Assembly (NCBI RefSeq): GCF_001270745.1
Contig: NZ_LFXL01000027.1
Location: forward strand, 62,001-126,000
Source: Jiangella muralis
Lineage (GTDB): Bacteria; Actinomycetota; Actinomycetes; Jiangellales; Jiangellaceae
Direction of reading: 5' to 3'
Length of the DNA: 64,000 nucleotides
Shown: positions 16,542-47,137 of the stretch, one piece after another
How positions within the stretch are numbered: position 1 is the stretch's first letter
How the letters are laid out: each line of letters opens with the position of its first letter
The notes under the pieces: model-generated
What the model was told of the DNA's origin: nothing
Database searches by the model: none
The model's input: the letters and a program-made list of their open reading frames with translations, nothing else
Made by a program: the position numbers and the translations under genes

Positions 16542-17378
16542 ATGACTGTCTCCATGACCCGGAGACGCCACGCGGTCATCGCCGCCACCGTCATGTTCGC
16601 CGCCAGCTCCGTCACCGCCGCCGCGCCGGTGGGCGCCACCGATGCGCGCGTCCCGGAGCCCACCATCGCCACCGGCCTGGGCTTCGACACCTGCACCGCG
16701 CCGTCGGTCGCCGCGCTCGACGCGTGGTGGGGCACGTCGCCCTACACCACCGTCAACATCTACTTCGGCGGCGTCAACCGCGGCTGCCGCCAGCCGAACC
16801 TGACGCCGTCGTGGGTGCAGACGGTCAGCGGCATGGGCTGGGGCCTGCTGCCCACGTACATGGGCCACCAGCCGATCTGCATGCTCGGCTCGAAGGAGCA
16901 CCGGTTCACCGAGGCCGACGCCACCGCCATCGGCACCGCGAACGCGCAGGACGCCGTCGCGCAGGCGCAGCACCTCGGACTGCTGCCGGGCAGCGCGCTG
17001 TACGCCGACGTCGAGCACTACGACCGCCGCGACACCTCGTGCGTCACCGCGGTCCGCCGCTACGTCTCCGCCTGGACGACGACGCTGCACGACGCCGGCT
17101 ACCTGGCCGGGGTGTACGTGCACCAGGACTCCGGCCTGCGCGACCTCTCCGCCGTCTACGACTCCCCAGACTACGCCCGCCCGGACGCCGTCTGGATGGC
17201 GCGCTGGGACGGCAACCCCGCACTCACCGGGTGGCCGACCGCGCCGGACAGCCAGTGGGCCAACCACCAGCGGGCGAAGCAGTACCTCGGCGACCACAAC
17301 GAGACGCACGGCGGCGTCACGCTCAACATCGACAGCGACTCGCTCGACGCGCCCATCGCCACGGTCGCAGGTCGGTAA
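16542..17378 (+). CDS. Secreted glycoside-hydrolase-like (DUF1906/Rv2525c-like) protein
   Basis: The protein has about 278 residues with an N-terminal signal peptide ending near ATDA. The remainder is a TIM-barrel domain of the DUF1906/Rv2525c type: GLGFDTCTAPSV, VNIYFGGVNRGC, LYADVEHYD, YLAGVYVHQDSG, WMARWDGN, and THGGVTLNIDSDSLD at the end. These proteins look like glycosidases acting on the cell wall, but catalysis is unproven. The Asp/Glu pair in DVEHYD is the likely active-site strand. The next gene encodes a close paralogue, so this is a tandem duplication. ATG 16554 is an alternative start. Confidence 0.85.
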   Translation: MTVSMTRRRHAVIAATVMFAASSVTAAAPVGATDARVPEPTIATGLGFDTCTAPSVAALDAWWGTSPYTTVNIYFGGVNRGCRQPNLTPSWVQTVSGMGWGLLPTYMGHQPICMLGSKEHRFTEADATAIGTANAQDAVAQAQHLGLLPGSALYADVEHYDRRDTSCVTAVRRYVSAWTTTLHDAGYLAGVYVHQDSGLRDLSAVYDSPDYARPDAVWMARWDGNPALTGWPTAPDSQWANHQRAKQYLGDHNETHGGVTLNIDSDSLDAPIATVAGR

Positions 17379-17508
17379 CGCCGCCCGAAACCCCTGTTCA
17401 ACGGCGGTTTTCGAGAGCACACTGGTTCCCTCCTCCCGTGGGGACTCGCCGCCGCCTGGGACCTCGCGGCCGGCTTCTGGCCCAGACCGGAGGACAGGGG
17501 GGTCCACC

Positions 17509-18834
17509 ATGAGCCGCTGGTCGGGCACAGTCAGCAGGGCGGCCGCTGGCGCCGTCGGCGCGGCGCTGGTCGTCGCCGCGCTCAGCACGCCGGCCGAGGG
17601 GTATCCGGCCACGCCGGGGAACTACCCGAGCGGGTCGTCGGCCACCGTCGCCACCGGGCGGGGCTTCGACACCTGCACCGCGCCGTCGCTGGCCGCGCTG
17701 CAGGCCTGGCGCGCGTCGCCGTTCCGCACCGTCAACATCTACTTCGGCGGCGTGAACCGGGGCTGCACGCAGCCCAACCTCACCGCGGCGTGGGTCCGCG
17801 GCGCGACGGCGGCCGGCTGGCGGCTGCTGCCCACCTACTTCGGCCGGCAGCCGTTCTGCCTGCTCGGCACCAAGCCGCACCGGTACACGTCCGGGACGGC
17901 GGGCTCGTACGGGATCTCGGACGCGCAGGACGCCGTCGCCCAGGCGCGAGCGCTCGGGCTGCTGCCGGGCAGCGCCCTCTACGCCGACGTCGAGCACTTC
18001 GACCGCACGAACGCCGACTGCGTGCTCGCGGTCCGCCGGTATGTCTCGGCCTGGACCGTGACCGTCCACCAGGCCGGCTACCTGGCCGGCGTCTACGTGC
18101 ACCAGGACTCCGGCCTGCCGACGCTGTCCGGCTCGTACGGCTCGGCCAGCTGGGCCCGGCCGGACGCCGTCTGGATGGCGCGCTGGGACGGCAACTCCGC
18201 GCTCACCGGCTGGCCCACCGCACCCAACACCCAGTGGGCCAACCACCAGCGGGCCAAGCAGTACCGCGGCGACCACACCGAGACGCACGGCGGCGTCACG
18301 CTGAACATCGACAGCGACGCGCTCGACGCCCCGGTCGCGACCGTCGCCCAGACGTTCCGCGTCACCAGCGCGACGGCGCTCAACGCGCGCACCGGGCCGT
18401 CGACGGCCTACCCCGTCGCCCGCAGCATCGCACCCGGAGCGTCCGTCGCGGTGGTGTGCCAAGGGCACGGCCAGCGGGTCGGCAGCAGCGGCGTGTGGGA
18501 CCGGCTCACCGACGGCGCGTGGGTGGCCGACTACTACGTCTCGACGCCGTCGAGCACCACATTCTCCAGCTCGCTGCCCAAGTGCACGTACCCCGGCCAG
18601 GTGACGAGCACGACGCCGCTGACCGCGCGGGGCGGGCCGGGCACGAACTACGCCGCCGCCGGCGCCGCACTGCAGCCCGGAGCCCTCGCATACGTCATGT
18701 GCCAGTCGGTCGGCTCGCTGGTCGGGACCAGCCGGGTCTGGAACCGGATGGACGACGGGCGCTGGGTCAGCGACTACTTCGTGGGCAACCAGTCCTCCCA
18801 CACCTGGAGCGCGCCGGTGCCGCGCTGCCCGTGA
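17509..18834 (+). CDS. Secreted glycoside-hydrolase-like protein with two SH3-type repeats
   Basis: The protein has 441 residues with a signal peptide (residues 1-30). Its DUF1906-like TIM barrel (about residues 40-285) is nearly the same as that of the preceding gene: VNIYFGGVNRGC, LYADVEHFD, WMARWDGN, THGGVTLNIDSD. Two bacterial SH3-like modules of about 70 residues follow, starting TALNARTGPSTAYPVA and TPLTARGGPGTNYAAA. Each ends with a W-V-x-D-Y-Y/F motif and contains one cysteine pair. The SH3 modules probably bind cell-wall peptide. The paralogue lacks them, so they were gained or lost after duplication. GGAGGACAGGGGGG precedes the ATG. Confidence 0.87.
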   Translation: MSRWSGTVSRAAAGAVGAALVVAALSTPAEGYPATPGNYPSGSSATVATGRGFDTCTAPSLAALQAWRASPFRTVNIYFGGVNRGCTQPNLTAAWVRGATAAGWRLLPTYFGRQPFCLLGTKPHRYTSGTAGSYGISDAQDAVAQARALGLLPGSALYADVEHFDRTNADCVLAVRRYVSAWTVTVHQAGYLAGVYVHQDSGLPTLSGSYGSASWARPDAVWMARWDGNSALTGWPTAPNTQWANHQRAKQYRGDHTETHGGVTLNIDSDALDAPVATVAQTFRVTSATALNARTGPSTAYPVARSIAPGASVAVVCQGHGQRVGSSGVWDRLTDGAWVADYYVSTPSSTTFSSSLPKCTYPGQVTSTTPLTARGGPGTNYAAAGAALQPGALAYVMCQSVGSLVGTSRVWNRMDDGRWVSDYFVGNQSSHTWSAPVPRCP

Positions 18835-18905: not shown

Positions 18906-19009
18906 GTGCACGCCGGCTGGTGCTCTGCCGTCACATCTGACCGCAGACCTCCATCGCGCGATCGCGCTCTGCCACCACATCTGACGGCAGAGCACCAGGC
19001 GGCGTGCAC
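18906..19009. repeat. Long imperfect inverted repeat with 42-bp arms
   Basis: The arms at 18906-18947 and 18968-19009 begin and end with GTGCACGCCG and CGGCGTGCAC. They share GGTGCTCTGCCGTCA in the stem and differ at about seven positions. The 20-bp centre contains the palindrome ATCGCGCGAT. It could fold into a large cruciform or RNA hairpin. No ORF is present inside, so it may be a miniature element or a processing/terminator structure. Confidence 0.75.
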
Positions 19010-22500: not shown

Positions 22501-23067
22501 TCAGATTCTGTGGCGGGCCCGCCAGTCGGCCCGGAGCAGGCCCATGAGCACGGCGTCGACGCGCTCGCCGTCCCAGAGCAGCGCCCCGCGCTCCCGTCCC
22601 TCGACGACGAACCCGCACTTCTCGTACGAGCGCTGCGCCCGCGGGTTGAACGCGTACACCTCGAGGCCCACGCGATACACGCCCACCTCCTCGAACAGGT
22701 AGGCGAGCATCAGCTCGATCGCCTCGGGCCCGAGCCCACGGCCGCGGTGGCTCTCGACGAGGTCGATGCGGAAGCCGGCGGTCTCGTTGTCGGCGTCGAC
22801 CTCATTGACGGCCAGCCCGCCGACGTACTCGCCGGTGGCGGTGTCCTCGAAGGCCCAGTCGAGGCGGTCGTACTGGTCGGCGCGGCTGGCGCAGTACGCG
22901 TCGATGGCCGCGCGGGTGAACGTCTGGTGGGTGCCGGTGAGGCGGTTGAACTCGGCGTCCTGCAGCGACGCGAACACCGCCTCGGCGTGCTGGGGGCCGA
23001 GCGGGACCAGCCGGATGCGCGGGCCGGTGAGCGTGGGGGTGGCAGCGAGTGCCCCAGCGTTGATCAC
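22501..23067 (-). CDS. GNAT family N-acetyltransferase (RimJ/RimL type)
   Basis: The 188-residue protein has the RimJ/RimL acetyltransferase pattern. It opens with LTGPRIRLVPLGPQHAEAVF; EYVGGLAVNEVDADNETAGFRIDL is the central sheet. SHRGRGLGPEAIELMLAYLFEEVG is the acetyl-CoA-binding helix region with its R/QxxGxG/A-like loop. VYAFNPRAQRSYEKCGFVVEGRER is the typical C-terminal motif. It probably acetylates a small molecule or an N-terminal residue. The start is GTG 23067. It lies 117 bp upstream of the permease gene on the same strand. Confidence 0.9.
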   Translation of the reverse strand: MINAGALAATPTLTGPRIRLVPLGPQHAEAVFASLQDAEFNRLTGTHQTFTRAAIDAYCASRADQYDRLDWAFEDTATGEYVGGLAVNEVDADNETAGFRIDLVESHRGRGLGPEAIELMLAYLFEEVGVYRVGLEVYAFNPRAQRSYEKCGFVVEGRERGALLWDGERVDAVLMGLLRADWRARHRI

Positions 23068-23137: not shown

Positions 23138-23172
23138 GAAGGCCCCTCGGAGTAAGGGTCCGAGGGGCCTTC
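23138..23172. terminator. 13-bp terminator-like hairpin, copy 1 of a repeated element
   Basis: GAAGGCCCCTCGG pairs with CCGAGGGGCCTTC around loop AGTAAGGGT. The same hairpin with one compensated base pair occurs at 27275-27309. Confidence 0.8.
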
Positions 23173-23524
23173 TCAGTCGACCAGAACCATCGCGTCCGGA
23201 TGAACCGGCCGGATGCTCGCCCCCTCCGATGACGGCGGCTCGAACGGCGGTCTCGCGGTCGCCCGCGTGCTCCACTGCCCTTCCGGTCTGCCGTCCGGCT
23301 CCGTCAGCCGCCCCGCCCATCGGGGTGCGGTCCGCCGGGTTGCCCCGACGTGGCGAACTGCCGTTCTCCGTCCGGCCCGCCCTCGACTACCTTCGGTGCC
23401 TTTGGCCAGGTCACCCCGGCTGTCCGGCTCCGATCTCGTCGATGACGATGGAGCATTTCTAGTCCTGTCGAGGGGGTCGCACAAGAGGGTTCGGCGAACA
23501 TTTCCGGGCCGGGCCGTCGCCCAC

Positions 23525-23595
23525 AAGGATGTCCACAAGAGGCTGAGCGTGGCCCACCGGTTTCCCACACCCCTGTGCACAGAATCTGTGGACAA
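23525..23595. other. Cluster of DnaA-box-like sequences
   Basis: TGTGGACAA (23587-23595) is the exact complement of the actinobacterial DnaA box TTGTCCACA and abuts the stop codon of the solenoid gene. TGTCCACA at 23530-23537 and weaker TTCCCACAC and CTGTGCACAG sequences lie within 70 bp. There is no dnaA, dnaN or rpmH nearby, so this is not the usual replication origin. Confidence 0.45.
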
Positions 23596-26500
23596 CTACC
23601 GGCGATTCAGCACCCGGGTGACGGCGGCGACGACGGTCGTGGCGAGCACGGCGCCGCTGAAGACGAGCCCGTAGGCCACCACGAGGTCCGGGCCACGCGG
23701 GTCCCAGGCGGCGTCCTGGCCCAGGCTGAGGATCGGGATCAGCAGGTCGAGCGTGTAGCCGAACGGGTTGAACGTCGGGTGGACGTTCACCTCGACCGGG
23801 TCCAGCGTCTTGTCCCAGAAGTAGGCGGTCCCGAACACCAGCAGGCCGACGAACCAGATGGCGGCCAGGCCGGGCCGGTAGCCGAAGCCGACGGTGAGGT
23901 CCTGCAGGTAGCCCCAGCCCTTCATCAGCGACTGGCCGAATGAGGACGTGCGCAGCAGGTCGCGGCGGTGCCGCAGCCGGGCCAGCAGGACGGTGCGCGC
24001 TGCGGCGTCGTCGCCGGAGCGGCGGTAGTGGCTGGCCAGCTGCTCGTACACCTGGTGCTGGTAGCCGGTGGGGTCGCGGCGCAGCCACGCCAGCGCGGTG
24101 TCGGTGTCGGCGTCGCCGGGGTCGTCGAAGGTGAGGCCGGACAGCATGACCATCGAGGTGTCGGTGGGGTCCATGACCAGCGTGCGGACCTCGGACCCGC
24201 GCAGGTCGACGGCGATCTCGCCGGCCGGCAGCTCCACGGTGCCGGCCTGCAACTCGGAGAGGTCGATCAGCGCCCGCAGCCCGGTGGCCGTGGCGGCGAC
24301 GCTGAGGTCGTTCATCAGGATCCGCCGGTCCACCTCGGCCTCGTGCAACGAGACCAGCGGCCGCTCCTGCTCGGTTCCGGCCGCACGGGAGTCGGCGGCG
24401 TGCTCCTGGCTGATCGTCACCTGCTCGCACGACAGCTCGCCGATGTGCGCGCGGTCCAGCCGCACCTCGCCGACGATGATCAGCGGGCCGTTGCCGGTGG
24501 AGCGGCGCGAGCCCAGCTCGACCGCGCCGGACACCCGCAGGTTCGGCGCGAACACCGCGGTGCGGCCCGGGTTCGTCAGCGTCGTGCGGCCGCGGACCAG
24601 CAGCCGGCCGGCCACCACCGCCTCGGCCAGCGAGACCTGCCCGGTCAGCTCGACATCACGGCACTCCAGGTTGCCCTCGACCTTGAGCCCGGAGGCCGCG
24701 ACGATCTCCCCGACGGCGACCCGGCCGTCGGCCCGTTCGCCGACCTCGCCGTGTACCGCCGTCAGCATGACGCTGAAGCCCACCTCGGCCCGTCGCAGCG
24801 CGAGGCCACCGGTCAGCTGCGCGTCGCGGACGAGGAACGAGCCGCCGATCTCGACCTGCGCGGCGTCGACGGCGAGCCGGCCCGGGTGGTGATAGCGGCC
24901 GCCGTCGACGAGGAGGTCGCCGCCGACCCGGGACCGCGCGACGATGACGGCGCCGTCGACGTCCAGCTCGGTCAGCCGGAACACCCCGCAGCCGACCTCG
25001 GGCAGCAGCAGCGCGGTCTGCCCGGGTGCGACGAACCGCGCGCGCCGCAGGCTCAGCCCGGCCGAGAACGTCGACCCGGTGAGCCGCAGCGCGCCGTTGA
25101 ACACCCCGCCGTCGACGAGGAAGTCGTCGGACGTCGTCTGGATCGCGCTGAAGACGATCGCCCCATCGGCCGACCCGACGCCGTGCCCGGCCAGCGTCGA
25201 GCCGCTGAGCACGAACCGGCGGCGCACGTGCGCCTGGTCGAACGAGACGGTGCCCTCGATCTCGGCCCGCTCGAACGAGACCTTGCCGCCCACCTGCATG
25301 CCGGTGCCGTCGAGCGCGCGGTGGTCGGGCCGGCGCAGCACGGCGCCGTCGAACACGACGTCGCCGCCGACCTTGCCGTCGCGCAGCACCAGGCCGCCGT
25401 CGGCCCAGAACCCGCCGAGGTCGGACGAGTACGGGTCGTCGCCGACGACGAGGTCGCCGCGGACCTCCATGCGCGGCGCGATGAGCGCGTTGCCGTCGGG
25501 GTTGTAGATCTGTGCGCCGGTCAGCACGACGCTGTCGGCGACCGCCGCGGTGAGCCGGACGGCGCCGTCGCAGACCATGCCGCGGGCGGTGAACCGGCCG
25601 TCGACCCGCAGGCCGATGGCGTCGACGCCCATGCCGGACGCCTCGATGTAGGCGCCGCGCAGCAGCACGTCGCTGCGCACCCGGGCCTGGAACAGCCGCA
25701 GCTGGCCCTGCACCCGGACGCCGTCCATGGCCAGGCTCTTGCCGAGGTCGGCGTGGGCGAGGTCGATGTCGCCGCGGCAGCGGAACCGCCGCCCGAGCAC
25801 CAGCCGCTCGCCGATGACGGCCCGCGACGCGGCCAGCGCGCGGTAGCCGCCGTCGAGGCTGGCGCCGGTGAGGAAGACCGCCGCGCCGACCCGGATGCCC
25901 TTGATGTTCAGTCCGCCCTTGGCGGACAGCCGCTCGAGGTTGAGGTCGCGCCGGACGGTCGCGGACTGCAGGCTCACGGCCCAGGAGTCGTCCGGGTTGG
26001 TGACCCGGGTGCCGACGAGGCGGACCGACGTCGCCTCCAGCTCGTCCAGCATGACCCGGCCGACCAGCCGGGCGCGGTCGGCCACCAGCGAGCCGACCGC
26101 GGCGCCGATGCCGACCATCGCGTACCCGCCGGGGTTGCTGATCTCGACGCCGCGCAGCGCGAGGGTGTCGCGGACGACGCCGCGCGGGATCAGCATGCGG
26201 CCGAGGATGCGCGCGCCGTTCTCGACCTCCAGCCGGTCGGCCTCGATGTCGCTGGCCACCAGGGCGTCGCCGCCGGGGTTGGCCAGCACCGCGCCGTCGA
26301 ACACGACGCTGCCGGCTACCGTCGCGTGGCCGAGGTCGACGGTGCCGCTGCAGCGCAGGCCGTTGCCCTGCACGCCGCCCGCGACCAGCCGGCGGGCGTC
26401 CAGCGCGACGCCGTGCCGGTTGCGCAGGACAGCGTCGGTGAGGTCGAGCTTCCCGGCGACGGTCGCACCGGACAGCACGATCGGCCCGCGGACCCGGGCA

Positions 26501-27114
26501 CCGACCAGGCCCAGTCCGCCGTCGACCCGCAGCCGCTCGGCATCGATGGCCTCGCCGGACGCCGCGAACAGCCGCGCGCGGGTGAGCAGGAGGTCGCCAC
26601 CGACGCTGAGGTTGCGGGCGTGGAACAGCGTCGAGCGGCCCTGGAACCGGCTGTCCTCGAACGACGCCGACCGGTGCACGCGGGTGTCGACCATGCTGAC
26701 CGAGCCGACGAGGCACTCGCGCACGGCCAGCGCGTTCTGCACGTCGACGGATTCGGTGCGCAGGTCCGGCACCCGGCAGCGGACCAGCTCGACGCCGGCC
26801 GCCGTCAGCTCGGCGAGCGCGAGGATGTCGTCGATCCAGCACATGTCCAGCCGCAGCGGCCGCTCCAGTCGCCCGTCGCGCAGCTGCAGGCCGCCGGTGA
26901 TGCGGGCGCCGGTCAGCCGGACGGCGGCGCCGGGCACGCCGCCGGCGTCGCGCAGCAGCTCGTCGACGATGCGGGCGCGGACGGTGCGCGACTCGTCCCA
27001 CGCGTCGGCGGACTCGACGGAGCGCGGATCGATGTCGCGGCCGAGGTCCGCCTCGCCGCCGCGAGCCACGGCGGACCGCAGCACCGACTCGGCGCGGCTG
27101 AGCCTGTCGCGCAC
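23596..27114 (-). CDS. Giant beta-solenoid repeat protein with C-terminal membrane segments
   Basis: The protein has about 1172 residues from GTG 27114, chosen for the GGGAGG ribosome site 4 bp upstream; TTG 27135 is in frame. Most of it is a continuous array of short beta-strand repeats of the form G-x-L-x-L-x-x-A-x-L/V, about 20 residues each. The turn motif NP-G/D-x-x-A recurs (NPGGDAL, NPGGYAM, NPDGNAL, NPGRTAV). This predicts a long right-handed beta-solenoid related to pentapeptide/bactofilin-like folds. Near residue 1030 a helical YEQLASHYRRSGDDAAARTVLL segment begins, followed by two membrane helices (about 1080-1100 and 1144-1166). Some homologues carry the label membrane-associated oxidoreductase, but no redox motif is visible. 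Function unknown. Confidence 0.88.
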   Translation of the reverse strand: MRDRLSRAESVLRSAVARGGEADLGRDIDPRSVESADAWDESRTVRARIVDELLRDAGGVPGAAVRLTGARITGGLQLRDGRLERPLRLDMCWIDDILALAELTAAGVELVRCRVPDLRTESVDVQNALAVRECLVGSVSMVDTRVHRSASFEDSRFQGRSTLFHARNLSVGGDLLLTRARLFAASGEAIDAERLRVDGGLGLVGARVRGPIVLSGATVAGKLDLTDAVLRNRHGVALDARRLVAGGVQGNGLRCSGTVDLGHATVAGSVVFDGAVLANPGGDALVASDIEADRLEVENGARILGRMLIPRGVVRDTLALRGVEISNPGGYAMVGIGAAVGSLVADRARLVGRVMLDELEATSVRLVGTRVTNPDDSWAVSLQSATVRRDLNLERLSAKGGLNIKGIRVGAAVFLTGASLDGGYRALAASRAVIGERLVLGRRFRCRGDIDLAHADLGKSLAMDGVRVQGQLRLFQARVRSDVLLRGAYIEASGMGVDAIGLRVDGRFTARGMVCDGAVRLTAAVADSVVLTGAQIYNPDGNALIAPRMEVRGDLVVGDDPYSSDLGGFWADGGLVLRDGKVGGDVVFDGAVLRRPDHRALDGTGMQVGGKVSFERAEIEGTVSFDQAHVRRRFVLSGSTLAGHGVGSADGAIVFSAIQTTSDDFLVDGGVFNGALRLTGSTFSAGLSLRRARFVAPGQTALLLPEVGCGVFRLTELDVDGAVIVARSRVGGDLLVDGGRYHHPGRLAVDAAQVEIGGSFLVRDAQLTGGLALRRAEVGFSVMLTAVHGEVGERADGRVAVGEIVAASGLKVEGNLECRDVELTGQVSLAEAVVAGRLLVRGRTTLTNPGRTAVFAPNLRVSGAVELGSRRSTGNGPLIIVGEVRLDRAHIGELSCEQVTISQEHAADSRAAGTEQERPLVSLHEAEVDRRILMNDLSVAATATGLRALIDLSELQAGTVELPAGEIAVDLRGSEVRTLVMDPTDTSMVMLSGLTFDDPGDADTDTALAWLRRDPTGYQHQVYEQLASHYRRSGDDAAARTVLLARLRHRRDLLRTSSFGQSLMKGWGYLQDLTVGFGYRPGLAAIWFVGLLVFGTAYFWDKTLDPVEVNVHPTFNPFGYTLDLLIPILSLGQDAAWDPRGPDLVVAYGLVFSGAVLATTVVAAVTRVLNRR

Positions 27115-27274
27115 TCTGCCTCCCGGTCCGGCCAAATCTCATCCCCGCCGTTGTCGGTGATCAATGTAACGGCAACGGCAAAGCGGTTGGATGCGGACGG
27201 ACCAACTCGAACCGATCGCGGCGATACGCCGTGTCGTGACGCGGTAGTCATCCGCGGATGCGATAGAAATCGCA

Positions 27275-27309
27275 GAAGACCCCTCGGAGTAAGGGCCCGA
27301 GGGGTCTTC
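27275..27309. terminator. 13-bp terminator-like hairpin, copy 2 of a repeated element
   Basis: GAAGACCCCTCGG pairs with CCGAGGGGTCTTC around loop AGTAAGGGC. Compared with copy 1, a G-C pair has become A-T in both arms, so pairing is conserved. Confidence 0.8.
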
Positions 27310-27344: not shown

Positions 27345-27382
27345 CGGCGTGACCCACAGGTTGTGGATCAGTTGTGGAAAGC
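27345..27382. other. DnaA-box-like sequences, right side of the solenoid gene
   Basis: TGTGGATCA (27362-27370) and TGTGGAAAG (27372-27380) each match the reverse complement of the DnaA box at 7 of 9 positions. They follow the second hairpin, mirroring the combination of hairpin and boxes on the left side. Confidence 0.3.
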
Positions 27383-27416: not shown

Positions 27417-28202
27417 TCAACCCGCCGCCACCGCCTGCAGGCCGAACCCGCTGGGCGCCTCCAGTGTCAGCCGGTCGCTGGTGATGGCGACCCGGACGTC
27501 GCCGTCGAGCGCGGCCAGCACGACGCCTTGGACGTACTGCGCCGCGCCCTCGCAGGCCAGCTCCGTCATCGCGAGATCGGTCACCGTGAGCGCGTCGCCG
27601 TCGATCATGACGGTGCCGCTGAGGTCGTTGCAGCCGGTGTTGCCGCTCAGGACGTCGCCGTCGATATGCAGGAACGCCGTGACGCCGACCGGCACGGACG
27701 ACGCCGTCTGGCCGTCGGAGAGGCCGTCGACGTTCCACTGCCGGCCGGTCAGCTCGACCGGCGGGTCCAGCACGTCGCGGTCGGTCAGCGACACGCCCCG
27801 GTCGTCGGCGGTGAGCACGAGAACGCCGTCGTCGCCCAGCTCCCAGGCGGGCTCGGCGGCCAGCAGCTCGCCGACCCACTCGTCGGACGCCATGACCTCG
27901 GGCTCGCAGCCCATCGCCGTCATGCCGAGGTCGGCGGCGGTGATGCGGCCGCCGGCCAGCTCGACCGGGCCGTTCGTGCTGTTGCAGCCGGCGGTGGCGA
28001 GCAGCCGGCCGTCGTCGGTGAAGGTGAGCGTCAGCGGGCCGCCGCCGGGGATGCCGACGTTCTCGGTGGAGACGAACGTGCGGCCGGCCAGCGCGGCGCC
28101 CGCGCCGGAACCACCCGCGGCGTCACCCGTGGCGGTGTCGCCGCAGGCGGCCGGCGTCAGCAGGACGCCCAGCAGGCCGAGGCCGGCCGCTGGGCGTCGC
28201 AT
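27417..28202 (-). CDS. Lipoprotein with two META (HslJ-like) domains
   Basis: The 261-residue protein starts with a signal peptide and lipobox TPAAC. Two META domains follow: about residues 38-145 with TAGCNSTNGPVEL, and about 150-255 with GNTGCNDLSGTVMIDG. Each carries the characteristic GCN-x-x-x-G turn and a second cysteine (GCEPE, ACEGA). HslJ-type META proteins are envelope proteins linked to stress or drug resistance, without a known reaction. The gene starts 1 bp after the preceding META gene, so the two form an operon. The stop codon lies beyond the second DnaA-box-like cluster. Confidence 0.9.
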   Translation of the reverse strand: MRRPAAGLGLLGVLLTPAACGDTATGDAAGGSGAGAALAGRTFVSTENVGIPGGGPLTLTFTDDGRLLATAGCNSTNGPVELAGGRITAADLGMTAMGCEPEVMASDEWVGELLAAEPAWELGDDGVLVLTADDRGVSLTDRDVLDPPVELTGRQWNVDGLSDGQTASSVPVGVTAFLHIDGDVLSGNTGCNDLSGTVMIDGDALTVTDLAMTELACEGAAQYVQGVVLAALDGDVRVAITSDRLTLEAPSGFGLQAVAAG

Positions 28203-28203
28203 G

Positions 28204-28698
28204 TCACAGATCGGTCGACGGGGCGTCGGATGCCTGCATGGTCAGCGACTCACCCTCGGCGTTGGTGATGGTCAGAGCGTCGCCGGACACCTCGACGGTG
28301 ACCTCGCCGCTGAGCACCGCCAGCATCGAGTTGTCGATCTGGCCGAGGTCGCCGGAGCAGCCGCGACGGGTGGAGATGAGCGGCTGGAAGGTGATGCTGG
28401 AGTCGCTCACCTCGGCCGACCCACTAAAGCCGTTGCAGCCCGTGGAGCCGGTGACGTCGCCGTTCTCGCCGATCTCGAAGTAGGCCTGCGGGTCGGCCGG
28501 GCCCGCGATCGTCGCGCCGGCGGCCTGCAGTTCCTCGAGCACCCACCGGCTGCCGACGATCGGCACGGCCGGTTCGGTGGAGCCGTCGGAGCCGGAGTCG
28601 CCAGGGACGGCGGTGGTGTCGTCGCCGCTGTCGTTACCGCCGCAGGCCGCCAACAGGGCGATGCCGGCGACCGCAGCGAGGGTTCCTAGTCGTCGCAT
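28204..28698 (-). CDS. Lipoprotein with a single META (HslJ-like) domain
   Basis: The 164-residue protein has lipobox LLAAC after an 18-residue signal sequence. A Gly/Asp/Ser linker follows, then one META domain with [26 protein letters not shown] and RGCSGDLG. It probably arose by duplication together with the two-domain protein encoded directly downstream. It is first in the operon. The upstream region is shared with the divergent acyl-CoA dehydrogenase gene. Confidence 0.9.
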
Positions 28699-45601: not shown

Positions 45602-47137
45602 TCAGTCGCGGCGGCGACCGTAGCTCGGCCGGCCGCGGCCGGCGCCGGCGCCCTTGTAGGGACGGCCCGAGCCGGAGCGGTTCGGGCGGCCGCCGTTACC
45701 GGTCGACCGCGGCCGCTCGCGCTCCGGCGCCATGGCCGGGGCGTCGGCCAGCGCCGTCGGGGTGATGGGGCCGTCGACGGAGCGGGCGTCGACGTTCTTG
45801 GCGGTGACGCCGGCGCGGCGGAACAGCTCGCCGAGGCCGCGCACCTGCCGCGGGGTGGCGACGGTGACGACGGCGCCGGTGGCGCCGGCGCGGGCCGTGC
45901 GGCCGGACCGGTGCAGGTACGACTTCGGCTCGCCGGCCGGGTCGAAGTGCACGACCATGCCGACGCCGTCGACGTGGATGCCGCGAGCCGCGACATCGGT
46001 GGCGACGACCACCTTGGCCCGGCCGGAGCGGAACCGGTCGAGGTTGCGCTCGCGGACCCGCTGCGACAGGTCGCCGTGGAGGTCGACGGCGGCGACGCCG
46101 GCGTCCTCGAGGTCCTCGGCCAGCCTGGTGGCGCCGTCCTTGGTGCGGGTGAAGACGATGCTGCGCGGATTGGCCCGCATCAGCTCGGTCATGACCTCGA
46201 GCTTGTTGTACGGGCCGACCACGAGCACGTGGTGGTCCATGGTCGTGACGGAGCCGGCGTCGGGGTCGACCTCATGCTTGGCCGGGGCGTTCAGGTGCCG
46301 CCGGACCAGCTTGTCGACGTCACCGTCGAGCGTGGCCGACAGCAGCATCCGCTGCCCGCCCTCGGGCGTGGCCGAGAGCAGCTCGTCGACCACCGGGAAG
46401 AAGCCGAGGTCGCACAGGTGGTCGGCCTCGTCGAGCGTGACGACCTCGACGTCGTCGAGCTTGCAGACGCCCTTCTCGATGAGGTCGCTGAGCCGGCCCG
46501 GGGTGGCGACGACGATGTCGGCGCCGCGGTCGAGCCGGCGGATCTGCCGGTCGTACGGCGCGCCGCCGTAGACGGTGACCATGCGCAGCCGCAGCGCCTC
46601 GGCCAGCGGCTCGAGCGCGGTGGTGACCTGGCCGGCCAGCTCGCGGGTCGGCACGACGATCAGCGCGCGCGGGCGGTTCGGCTCGCTGCGCTTGCCGTCG
46701 AGCCGGGTGAGGATGGGCAGGCCGAACGCCAGCGTCTTGCCCGAGCCGGTCTTGGCGCGGCCGAGCACGTCGTGGCCGGCCAGGGCGTCGGGGATGACCG
46801 CCGCCTGGACCGGGGTCGGCTCGACGATGCCGTCGACGCCGAGGATCTTCACGACGCGGTCGGGCACACCCATGGTGGAGAAGGCCGAGCCGGCCGGGTC
46901 GAACGCCTCGATGGCGGCCCTGCGGGCGGGGTCGAAGGAGCGGCGGTCGTTGGGGCGGCCGCCCTGGCGGCGGTCGCCACGGAACGGACGGCGGCCGTAG
47001 GGGCGGCCACCCTCGCGGCCGTCGCCGTCGCGGCGGAACCCGCCCTCACGCCGGTGGCCGCCGTCGCGGCGCTCGGGCCGCTGGCGGTAGGGACGGGAGT
47101 CGGTGCCGGACGTGCCGGCAGGATCGTACGAAGTCAC
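45602..47137 (-). CDS. DEAD-box RNA helicase
   Basis: The protein has about 511 residues. The two RecA-like domains show the Q motif region (VEPTPVQAAVIP), motif I AKTGSGKT, Ia PTRELAGQ, Ib TPGRL, II DEAD, III SAT, IV IVFTRTK, V VATDVAARGIH and VI HRSGRTARAG. Both ends are low-complexity and basic: an Arg/Gly/Asp-rich N-terminus of about 60 residues and an RGRPSYGRRRD tail, typical of helicases for structured RNA. GTG 47137 (MTSYDPAGTSG) is my start; the longer frame to 47269 lacks family resemblance. The leader appears to be about 170 nt long and contains a hairpin. Confidence 0.95.
   Translation of the reverse strand: MTSYDPAGTSGTDSRPYRQRPERRDGGHRREGGFRRDGDGREGGRPYGRRPFRGDRRQGGRPNDRRSFDPARRAAIEAFDPAGSAFSTMGVPDRVVKILGVDGIVEPTPVQAAVIPDALAGHDVLGRAKTGSGKTLAFGLPILTRLDGKRSEPNRPRALIVVPTRELAGQVTTALEPLAEALRLRMVTVYGGAPYDRQIRRLDRGADIVVATPGRLSDLIEKGVCKLDDVEVVTLDEADHLCDLGFFPVVDELLSATPEGGQRMLLSATLDGDVDKLVRRHLNAPAKHEVDPDAGSVTTMDHHVLVVGPYNKLEVMTELMRANPRSIVFTRTKDGATRLAEDLEDAGVAAVDLHGDLSQRVRERNLDRFRSGRAKVVVATDVAARGIHVDGVGMVVHFDPAGEPKSYLHRSGRTARAGATGAVVTVATPRQVRGLGELFRRAGVTAKNVDARSVDGPITPTALADAPAMAPERERPRSTGNGGRPNRSGSGRPYKGAGAGRGRPSYGRRRD

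Follow-up and report, generated by a model that had tools for sequence, protein, structure and literature searches.

A conserved structured RNA gene behind a DnaA-box-like array, next to a gene for a beta-solenoid membrane protein, in Jiangella

The locus described here is best read as two independent genes, one for a large beta-solenoid membrane protein and one for an RNA of about 310 nt, together with a duplicated terminator, where the RNA would be linked to DnaA and act in trans; taken as a whole, we regard this reading as likely. The locus lies in a window of 64,000 nt, by which we mean the whole stretch of DNA analyzed (Jiangella muralis, assembly GCF_001270745.1, contig NZ_LFXL01000027.1, positions 62,001-126,000, forward strand). 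Comparison between genomes shows a separate gene for a conserved RNA with a common predicted fold between the solenoid gene and a GNAT acetyltransferase gene. This RNA gene was previously unlisted and matches no family of Rfam 15, in good agreement with a preliminary description of this DNA, which had expected something undescribed here. Its carriers are soil bacteria that belong to several families. The literature searched, chiefly papers outside subscription journals, contains no earlier description of the RNA. The features of the locus are as follows, in window coordinates.

22501-23067, minus strand: GNAT acetyltransferase gene (Pfam Acetyltransf_3, 7.8e-19), downstream of hairpin A
23138-23172, minus strand: hairpin A, resembling a terminator and forming the RNA's 3' end, with loop CCCUUAC (pairing alignment, helix 15)
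23138-23450, minus strand: non-coding structured RNA of about 310 nt with an estimated 5' end (covariation; models R1 and R2)
23456-23484, minus strand: putative RNA promoter TTGTGC-N17-TAGAAA (conserved in the aligned units)
23517-23595, minus strand: five-site DnaA-box-like array of fixed spacing (offsets before the RNA start; spacing common to four families)
23596-27114, minus strand: gene for the 1172-aa beta-solenoid membrane protein (open reading frame; GTG start 27114, ribosome-binding site GGGAGG, stop 23596)
23599-23874, minus strand: predicted two-helix pore-like module, residues 1081-1172, with the loop YTLDLLIPILSLGQD at the filter position (homologue-based model, NaK match)
24115-26922, minus strand: predicted beta-solenoid, residues ~65-1000 (AlphaFold2 secondary structure; VIA matches)
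27163-27168, minus strand: candidate -10 of the solenoid gene, conserved TACATT (alignment)
27275-27309, minus strand: hairpin B, second copy of hairpin A, located 3' of the META genes and 5' of the solenoid gene
27350-27381, minus strand: second DnaA-box-like cluster TTTCCACAACTGATCCACAACCTGTGGGTCA (alignment; nearly invariant in most Jiangella genomes)
27417-28202, minus strand: META-domain protein gene (Pfam META, 2.6e-34), upstream of hairpin B
28204-28698, minus strand: second META-domain protein gene (Pfam META, 1.3e-23)

An alignment reaching from the solenoid stop codon to hairpin A reveals the layout of the RNA unit: the boxes, the promoter-like TTGTGC-N17-TAGAAA, about 310 nt of RNA, and hairpin A. 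Insertions and deletions in its conserved blocks ignore codons. The RNA would be transcribed from this promoter, which is sigma-A-like.

Evidence for a conserved fold comes from compensatory pairing. In an alignment of 17 Jiangellaceae sequences built without reference to structure, 91.5% of cells are paired, and both sides have changed in 48 of 105 pairs, compared with 16.2 in shuffled alignments (0 of 500 reached the observed count) and 13-21 in slid controls. With three members from other families included, 32 of 45 pairs are changed on both sides versus 15.8, and with eight such members 35 of 45 versus 21.9, the alignments in question (A9 and A11) being fitted to a covariance model. The predicted fold is composed of three domains with GNRA-capped hairpins and is closed by hairpin A. 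The GNRA-type loops of several hairpins vary between GCAA, GAAA, GUGA, and GAGA. Against Rfam 15, both Jiangellaceae and other-family members gave matches at chance level only, none at gathering score.

Two covariance models were used to follow the RNA through a sample of 394 genomes of the class, from which the families f38, f20, f6, and f33 are taken. R1 is composed of 13 Jiangellaceae sequences, while R2 includes three members from other families and, being built partly from them, gives inflated scores for these members. In a scan of the window, the RNA scores 150.5 bits and the best chance match 18 bits. Of 22 Jiangellaceae genomes, 17 gave a match to the RNA, as did genomes of the families f38, f20, and f6. 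For the other families, the unbiased matches are those of R1, with 2.2e-6, 5.2e-6, and 3.7e-4 per genome, rough values inasmuch as the calibration of both models was short. R2 added members in G351, G120, G061, and G026, with promoter and terminator present; f33 (29.2 bits) and the unit of G067 were recognized by the terminator, and the membership of L107 and L109 rests mainly on anatomy. Members from other families carry promoter and terminator, and most of them the same box array; the three matched by R1 share the anatomy of the unit, with a terminator loop, CUCAUAC, that parallels the CCCUUAC of Jiangella. Further R1 matches (L247-L250) are partial alignments only and were judged to be chance; in L247, promoter and terminator are absent. 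Seven viral matches to the terminator motif come without the RNA and apparently lie in coding sequence. A single genome, G078, carries two RNA units (contigs C34 and C163; L244 and L109), one with a DnaA-box array behind a gene with a transhydrogenase PntB-like end, the second divergent and recognized mainly by promoter and terminator.

Judged by this distribution, the RNA gene is independent of the solenoid gene. In other families, the neighboring genes differ and the solenoid gene is absent from the vicinity. Three Phytoactinopolyspora genomes carry the unit of boxes, RNA, and hairpin behind a META gene rather than the solenoid gene, and hence the hairpin belongs to the neighboring RNA gene. 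Conversely, three genomes of the Phytoactinopolyspora group (G012, G019, and G020) keep the solenoid gene without an RNA match. Nor is the RNA tied to solenoid homologues elsewhere: the loci outside Jiangellaceae score at most 20.6 bits, which is chance level, and none is convincing.

The second conserved element of the unit is the array. In the window, three sites with at most one mismatch from TTNTCCACA lie within the 220 nt before the RNA, where 0.06 are expected, and most RNA units have two to four such sites in this interval (0.06-0.20 expected). In Jiangellaceae, f38, G078, and G067 alike, the boxes start 77, 90, 103, 135, and 147 nt before the RNA start, give or take some 2-3 nt. All five boxes at one mismatch or less occur in no unit, and the units of G061 and G026 have no box at this threshold; the RNA can thus do without the array. 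Between the first box and the promoter, the alignment of fourteen units has hardly any gaps, and its information lies mostly in the boxes and in the -35 and -10 elements. The array upstream of the RNA therewith holds several near-consensus boxes that exceed chance and are conserved in position. Over the whole 64 kb, 12 DnaA-box-like sites stand against 10.4 expected; with no enrichment at this scale, the signal consists in clustering and conservation. A genome-wide scan with an ill-suited palindromic DnaA-box pattern returned nothing. The DnaA-box-like clusters that had been proposed for both flanks of the solenoid gene are indeed present, at 23517-23595 and 27350-27381, the latter fitting the DnaA-box consensus less well than the former.

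Several box sites read TTGTGCACA or TTGTCCACC and so depart from the actinobacterial consensus, as would be the case if the boxes were bound by a regulator unconnected with DnaA. Against such a regulator stand the perfect TTGTCCACA or TTATCCACA sites at fixed positions in the array, and DnaA arrays commonly show mixed orientation; we regard this explanation as rather unlikely, the best placed of those to be weighed here.

Even if DnaA is the binding protein, the array might primarily serve the titration or reactivation of DnaA, in the manner of datA or DARS, with the RNA being secondary. The spacing of the boxes, which is fixed across families, is consistent with this, and the array is not oriC: in G003, where a contig begins with dnaA (known by its C-terminal sequence), the RNA unit lies about 217 kb away. 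The datA and DARS elements of Escherichia coli are likewise groups of DnaA boxes of fixed arrangement outside oriC. Our putative DnaA-binding array differs from them in spacing and hosts, and we know of no structured RNA gene behind datA or DARS. Since the RNA is conserved with a promoter of its own and boxes are missing from some RNA units, an element of this kind with a merely secondary RNA appears unlikely to us. Modulation of the RNA promoter by the array is the preferred reading.

Concerning the RNA itself, the closest known system is Ms1 (scr3559, MTS2823), the core RNA polymerase-binding RNA of Actinobacteria, also a stand-alone structured RNA of about 230-300 nt. That our RNA is Ms1 itself, in a Jiangellaceae version moved to a new place, is suggested by a similar length and promoter type, by the listing of Jiangella in the Ms1 paper (PMC9130861), and by the poor conservation in Jiangella of the HAD-downstream intergenic region, which is the Ms1 site in Streptomyces. 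In the own genome (contig C16), this region corresponds to L088, 6128-6480; within Jiangellaceae it is poorly conserved, and it does not resemble the Ms1 region of the Streptomyces type. However, R2 finds no match, with E up to 1, at the HAD-linked loci of other Actinobacteria (L215-L220) and of Jiangella (L088). The Streptomyces-type Ms1 sequence is unlike our RNA, and the terminator differs as well. So do the gene neighbors: no HAD gene lies near the RNA units, such that the Ms1-type position between a HAD hydrolase and an 'oxidoreductase' gene is not found, and the flanks are formed by the solenoid gene and GNAT, by META, or by unrelated genes. One HAD match, L083, proved to be a glutaredoxin/Rex locus and was discarded. 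We consider identity with Ms1 improbable; as Ms1 is weakly conserved, the RNA may still be its functional analogue or kin. CoRP of Corynebacterium glutamicum, 516 nt long and located between tRNA genes (PMC11077062), is likewise encoded between genes in an actinobacterium and measures a few hundred nucleotides. By its described length and position, CoRP differs from our RNA.

Hairpins A and B have the same orientation and a common stem core and loop. With three mismatches allowed they are the sole two copies in the 7.27-Mb genome, while none is expected in the window. A widespread repeat can be ruled out, since the exact core occurs in 15 of 297 genomes of the class, all of them Jiangellaceae and most with two copies per genome. 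The matching hairpins that the preliminary description had seen on both sides of the gene are therefore real and specific to the locus. Its order of hairpin followed by boxes applies to the plus strand; in the local direction of the genes, the boxes come first and the hairpin follows. Beside hairpin B, a covariance-model search found no RNA match, even with filters off. Hairpin B is probably a second terminator, most simply derived by local duplication.

Both hairpins lie downstream of minus-strand genes, which would also be expected if they merely terminated transcription and the conserved stretch from the solenoid stop to hairpin A were no more than an untranslated region. This is very improbable, since the RNA follows a META gene in Phytoactinopolyspora and unrelated genes in other families, with its own promoter-like sequence in every such context.

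Finally, the two flanks match in sequence and orientation and have no further copy in the genome, in keeping with the idea that the solenoid gene travelled as one unit, a mobile cassette marked by hairpins and boxes. The neighborhood, as identified by Pfam and synteny comparison, comprises META, GNAT, acyl-CoA dehydrogenase, FtsX-type permease, and RpiR-type regulator genes. Its order, a divergent acyl-CoA dehydrogenase gene, META gene(s), solenoid gene, and GNAT gene, is the same in 12 of 12 Jiangella genomes, including that of the window, and in two Haloactinopolyspora genomes; in Phytoactinopolyspora, the dehydrogenase gene directly adjoins the solenoid gene, followed by the META gene. Given this conserved position, the lack of a precise empty site among the same 12 Jiangella and two Haloactinopolyspora genomes, and RNA units elsewhere without the solenoid gene, a mobile cassette is hardly credible, and the reading as two genes with a duplicated terminator is retained.

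Some further features of the window were observed outside this locus. A long palindrome with two 52-nt arms, 83% complementary and without spacer, contains CTCTGCCGTCACATCTGAC-like repeats (18906-19009). Tandem paralogues at 16645-18209 encode similar NIYFGGVNRGC proteins; a 300-nt block recurs there 979 bases away with 80% identity. A 94-nt tRNA-Ala(ggc) reported by ARAGORN at 45845-45938 lies amid long open frames and is possibly spurious.

The protein encoded by the solenoid gene was modeled with AlphaFold2 from 24 sequences (mean pLDDT 88.9). The model shows a near-unbroken beta-solenoid at residues ~65-1000, then helices, and then two membrane helices, as also indicated by hydropathy. The earlier picture of a beta-solenoid membrane protein of about 1170 residues agrees with this prediction, which yielded a solenoid and no enzyme fold. 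The VIA matches of the full model in structural alignment are parallel beta-helix proteins, with Z reaching 24.9 across some 300 residues; at the level of the model, these matches indicate the fold and no function. Enzyme-bearing beta-helices also rank high among the PDB matches, a likeness that is one of shared fold only. Among Pfam profiles, Pentapeptide_3 is matched (8.6e-15, 55.1 bits, cut-off 27), and Bactofilin PF04519 stays below its cut-off (20.6 versus 27.9). An oxidoreductase label, which according to the preliminary description is attached to some homologues, had been noted there as being without support in the motifs; neither a dehydrogenase profile among Pfam profiles nor an enzyme fold in the AlphaFold2 model was found.

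The homologue search returned 544 matching stretches, of which the 80 listed belong to Streptomyces, Actinomadura, Nonomuraea, and others; among these listed matches, the proteins are mostly 400-700 aa long with a strongly conserved C-terminus. The family is thus common in Actinobacteria, and the 1172-aa protein is one of its long members. The protein shares beta-solenoid repeats with the pentapeptide-repeat proteins QnrB1, MfpA, and AlbG and with bactofilins, but is about five times longer, membrane-anchored, and provided with a C-terminal two-transmembrane-helix (2TM) module. In Jiangella ureilytica (L123 / L016), the gene is split into two frames near residue 883 by a frameshift or an assembly error.

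The C-terminus was modeled separately from 40 homologues (pLDDT 76.8). This predicted model has the TM1-pore helix-TM2 fold of a K+ channel pore domain. It matches the NaK channel with Z 10.5 and an rmsd of 2.2 over 80 residues, which makes 2TM pore modules the best class; KirBac and MthK follow with Z near 8-9, and HalA, the ion-channel effector of Hailong defence (PDB 9nyi), with Z 9.0 and an rmsd of 3.9 (175/190 residues). Foldseek E-values of the C-terminal model are weak (0.4 or more), and HalA appears in the top Foldseek rows of the full model, too. Unlike HalA, the solenoid protein has LGQ[DE] at the filter position and gives no match to PADLOC profiles, nor do two homologues and four neighbors; a HalB-like nucleotidyltransferase partner is absent among the neighbors scanned. 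The TVGYG selectivity filter of K+ channels is absent, and column counts of homologues give [DSN][LF]GQ[DE] at this position. Hence, the C-terminus resembles a 2TM K+-channel pore in its modeled fold, and the membrane anchor may be pore-like or formerly pore-like. A terminus of this kind speaks against an enzyme, and the solenoid part of the membrane-anchored protein would probably sense or gate. The protein may act as a membrane needle or scaffold; the K+-channel-pore-like C-terminus of the model favors a solenoid-gated or vestigial pore over that role. For a family of hundreds of loci, labeled as oxidoreductase in places, this provides a channel-like reading that is open to test.

Returning to the RNA, array and promoter may form one conserved switch through which DnaA availability would determine how much of this folded RNA, acting in trans, is present. 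Most likely, DnaA occupancy of the five-box array modulates the RNA promoter, such that the rate of RNA synthesis would follow the replication state, and the RNA would act in trans by binding a protein. Alternatively, the array could titrate DnaA, and the RNA would report or tune this titration. That we are dealing with a new class of actinobacterial regulatory RNA, in which DnaA sets the RNA level or transcription resets DnaA, is a tentative proposal for which the odds are, in our estimate, somewhat short of even. To our knowledge, few stand-alone structured RNAs of Actinobacteria are known, and none behind an ordered DnaA-box array has been reported as far as our literature searches reached. 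With its fixed row of DnaA-box-like sites, the switch may tie production of the RNA to the copying of the chromosome. If DnaA does control the RNA, this would provide a testable link from replication initiation to RNA-based regulation in bacteria among which antibiotic producers are found.
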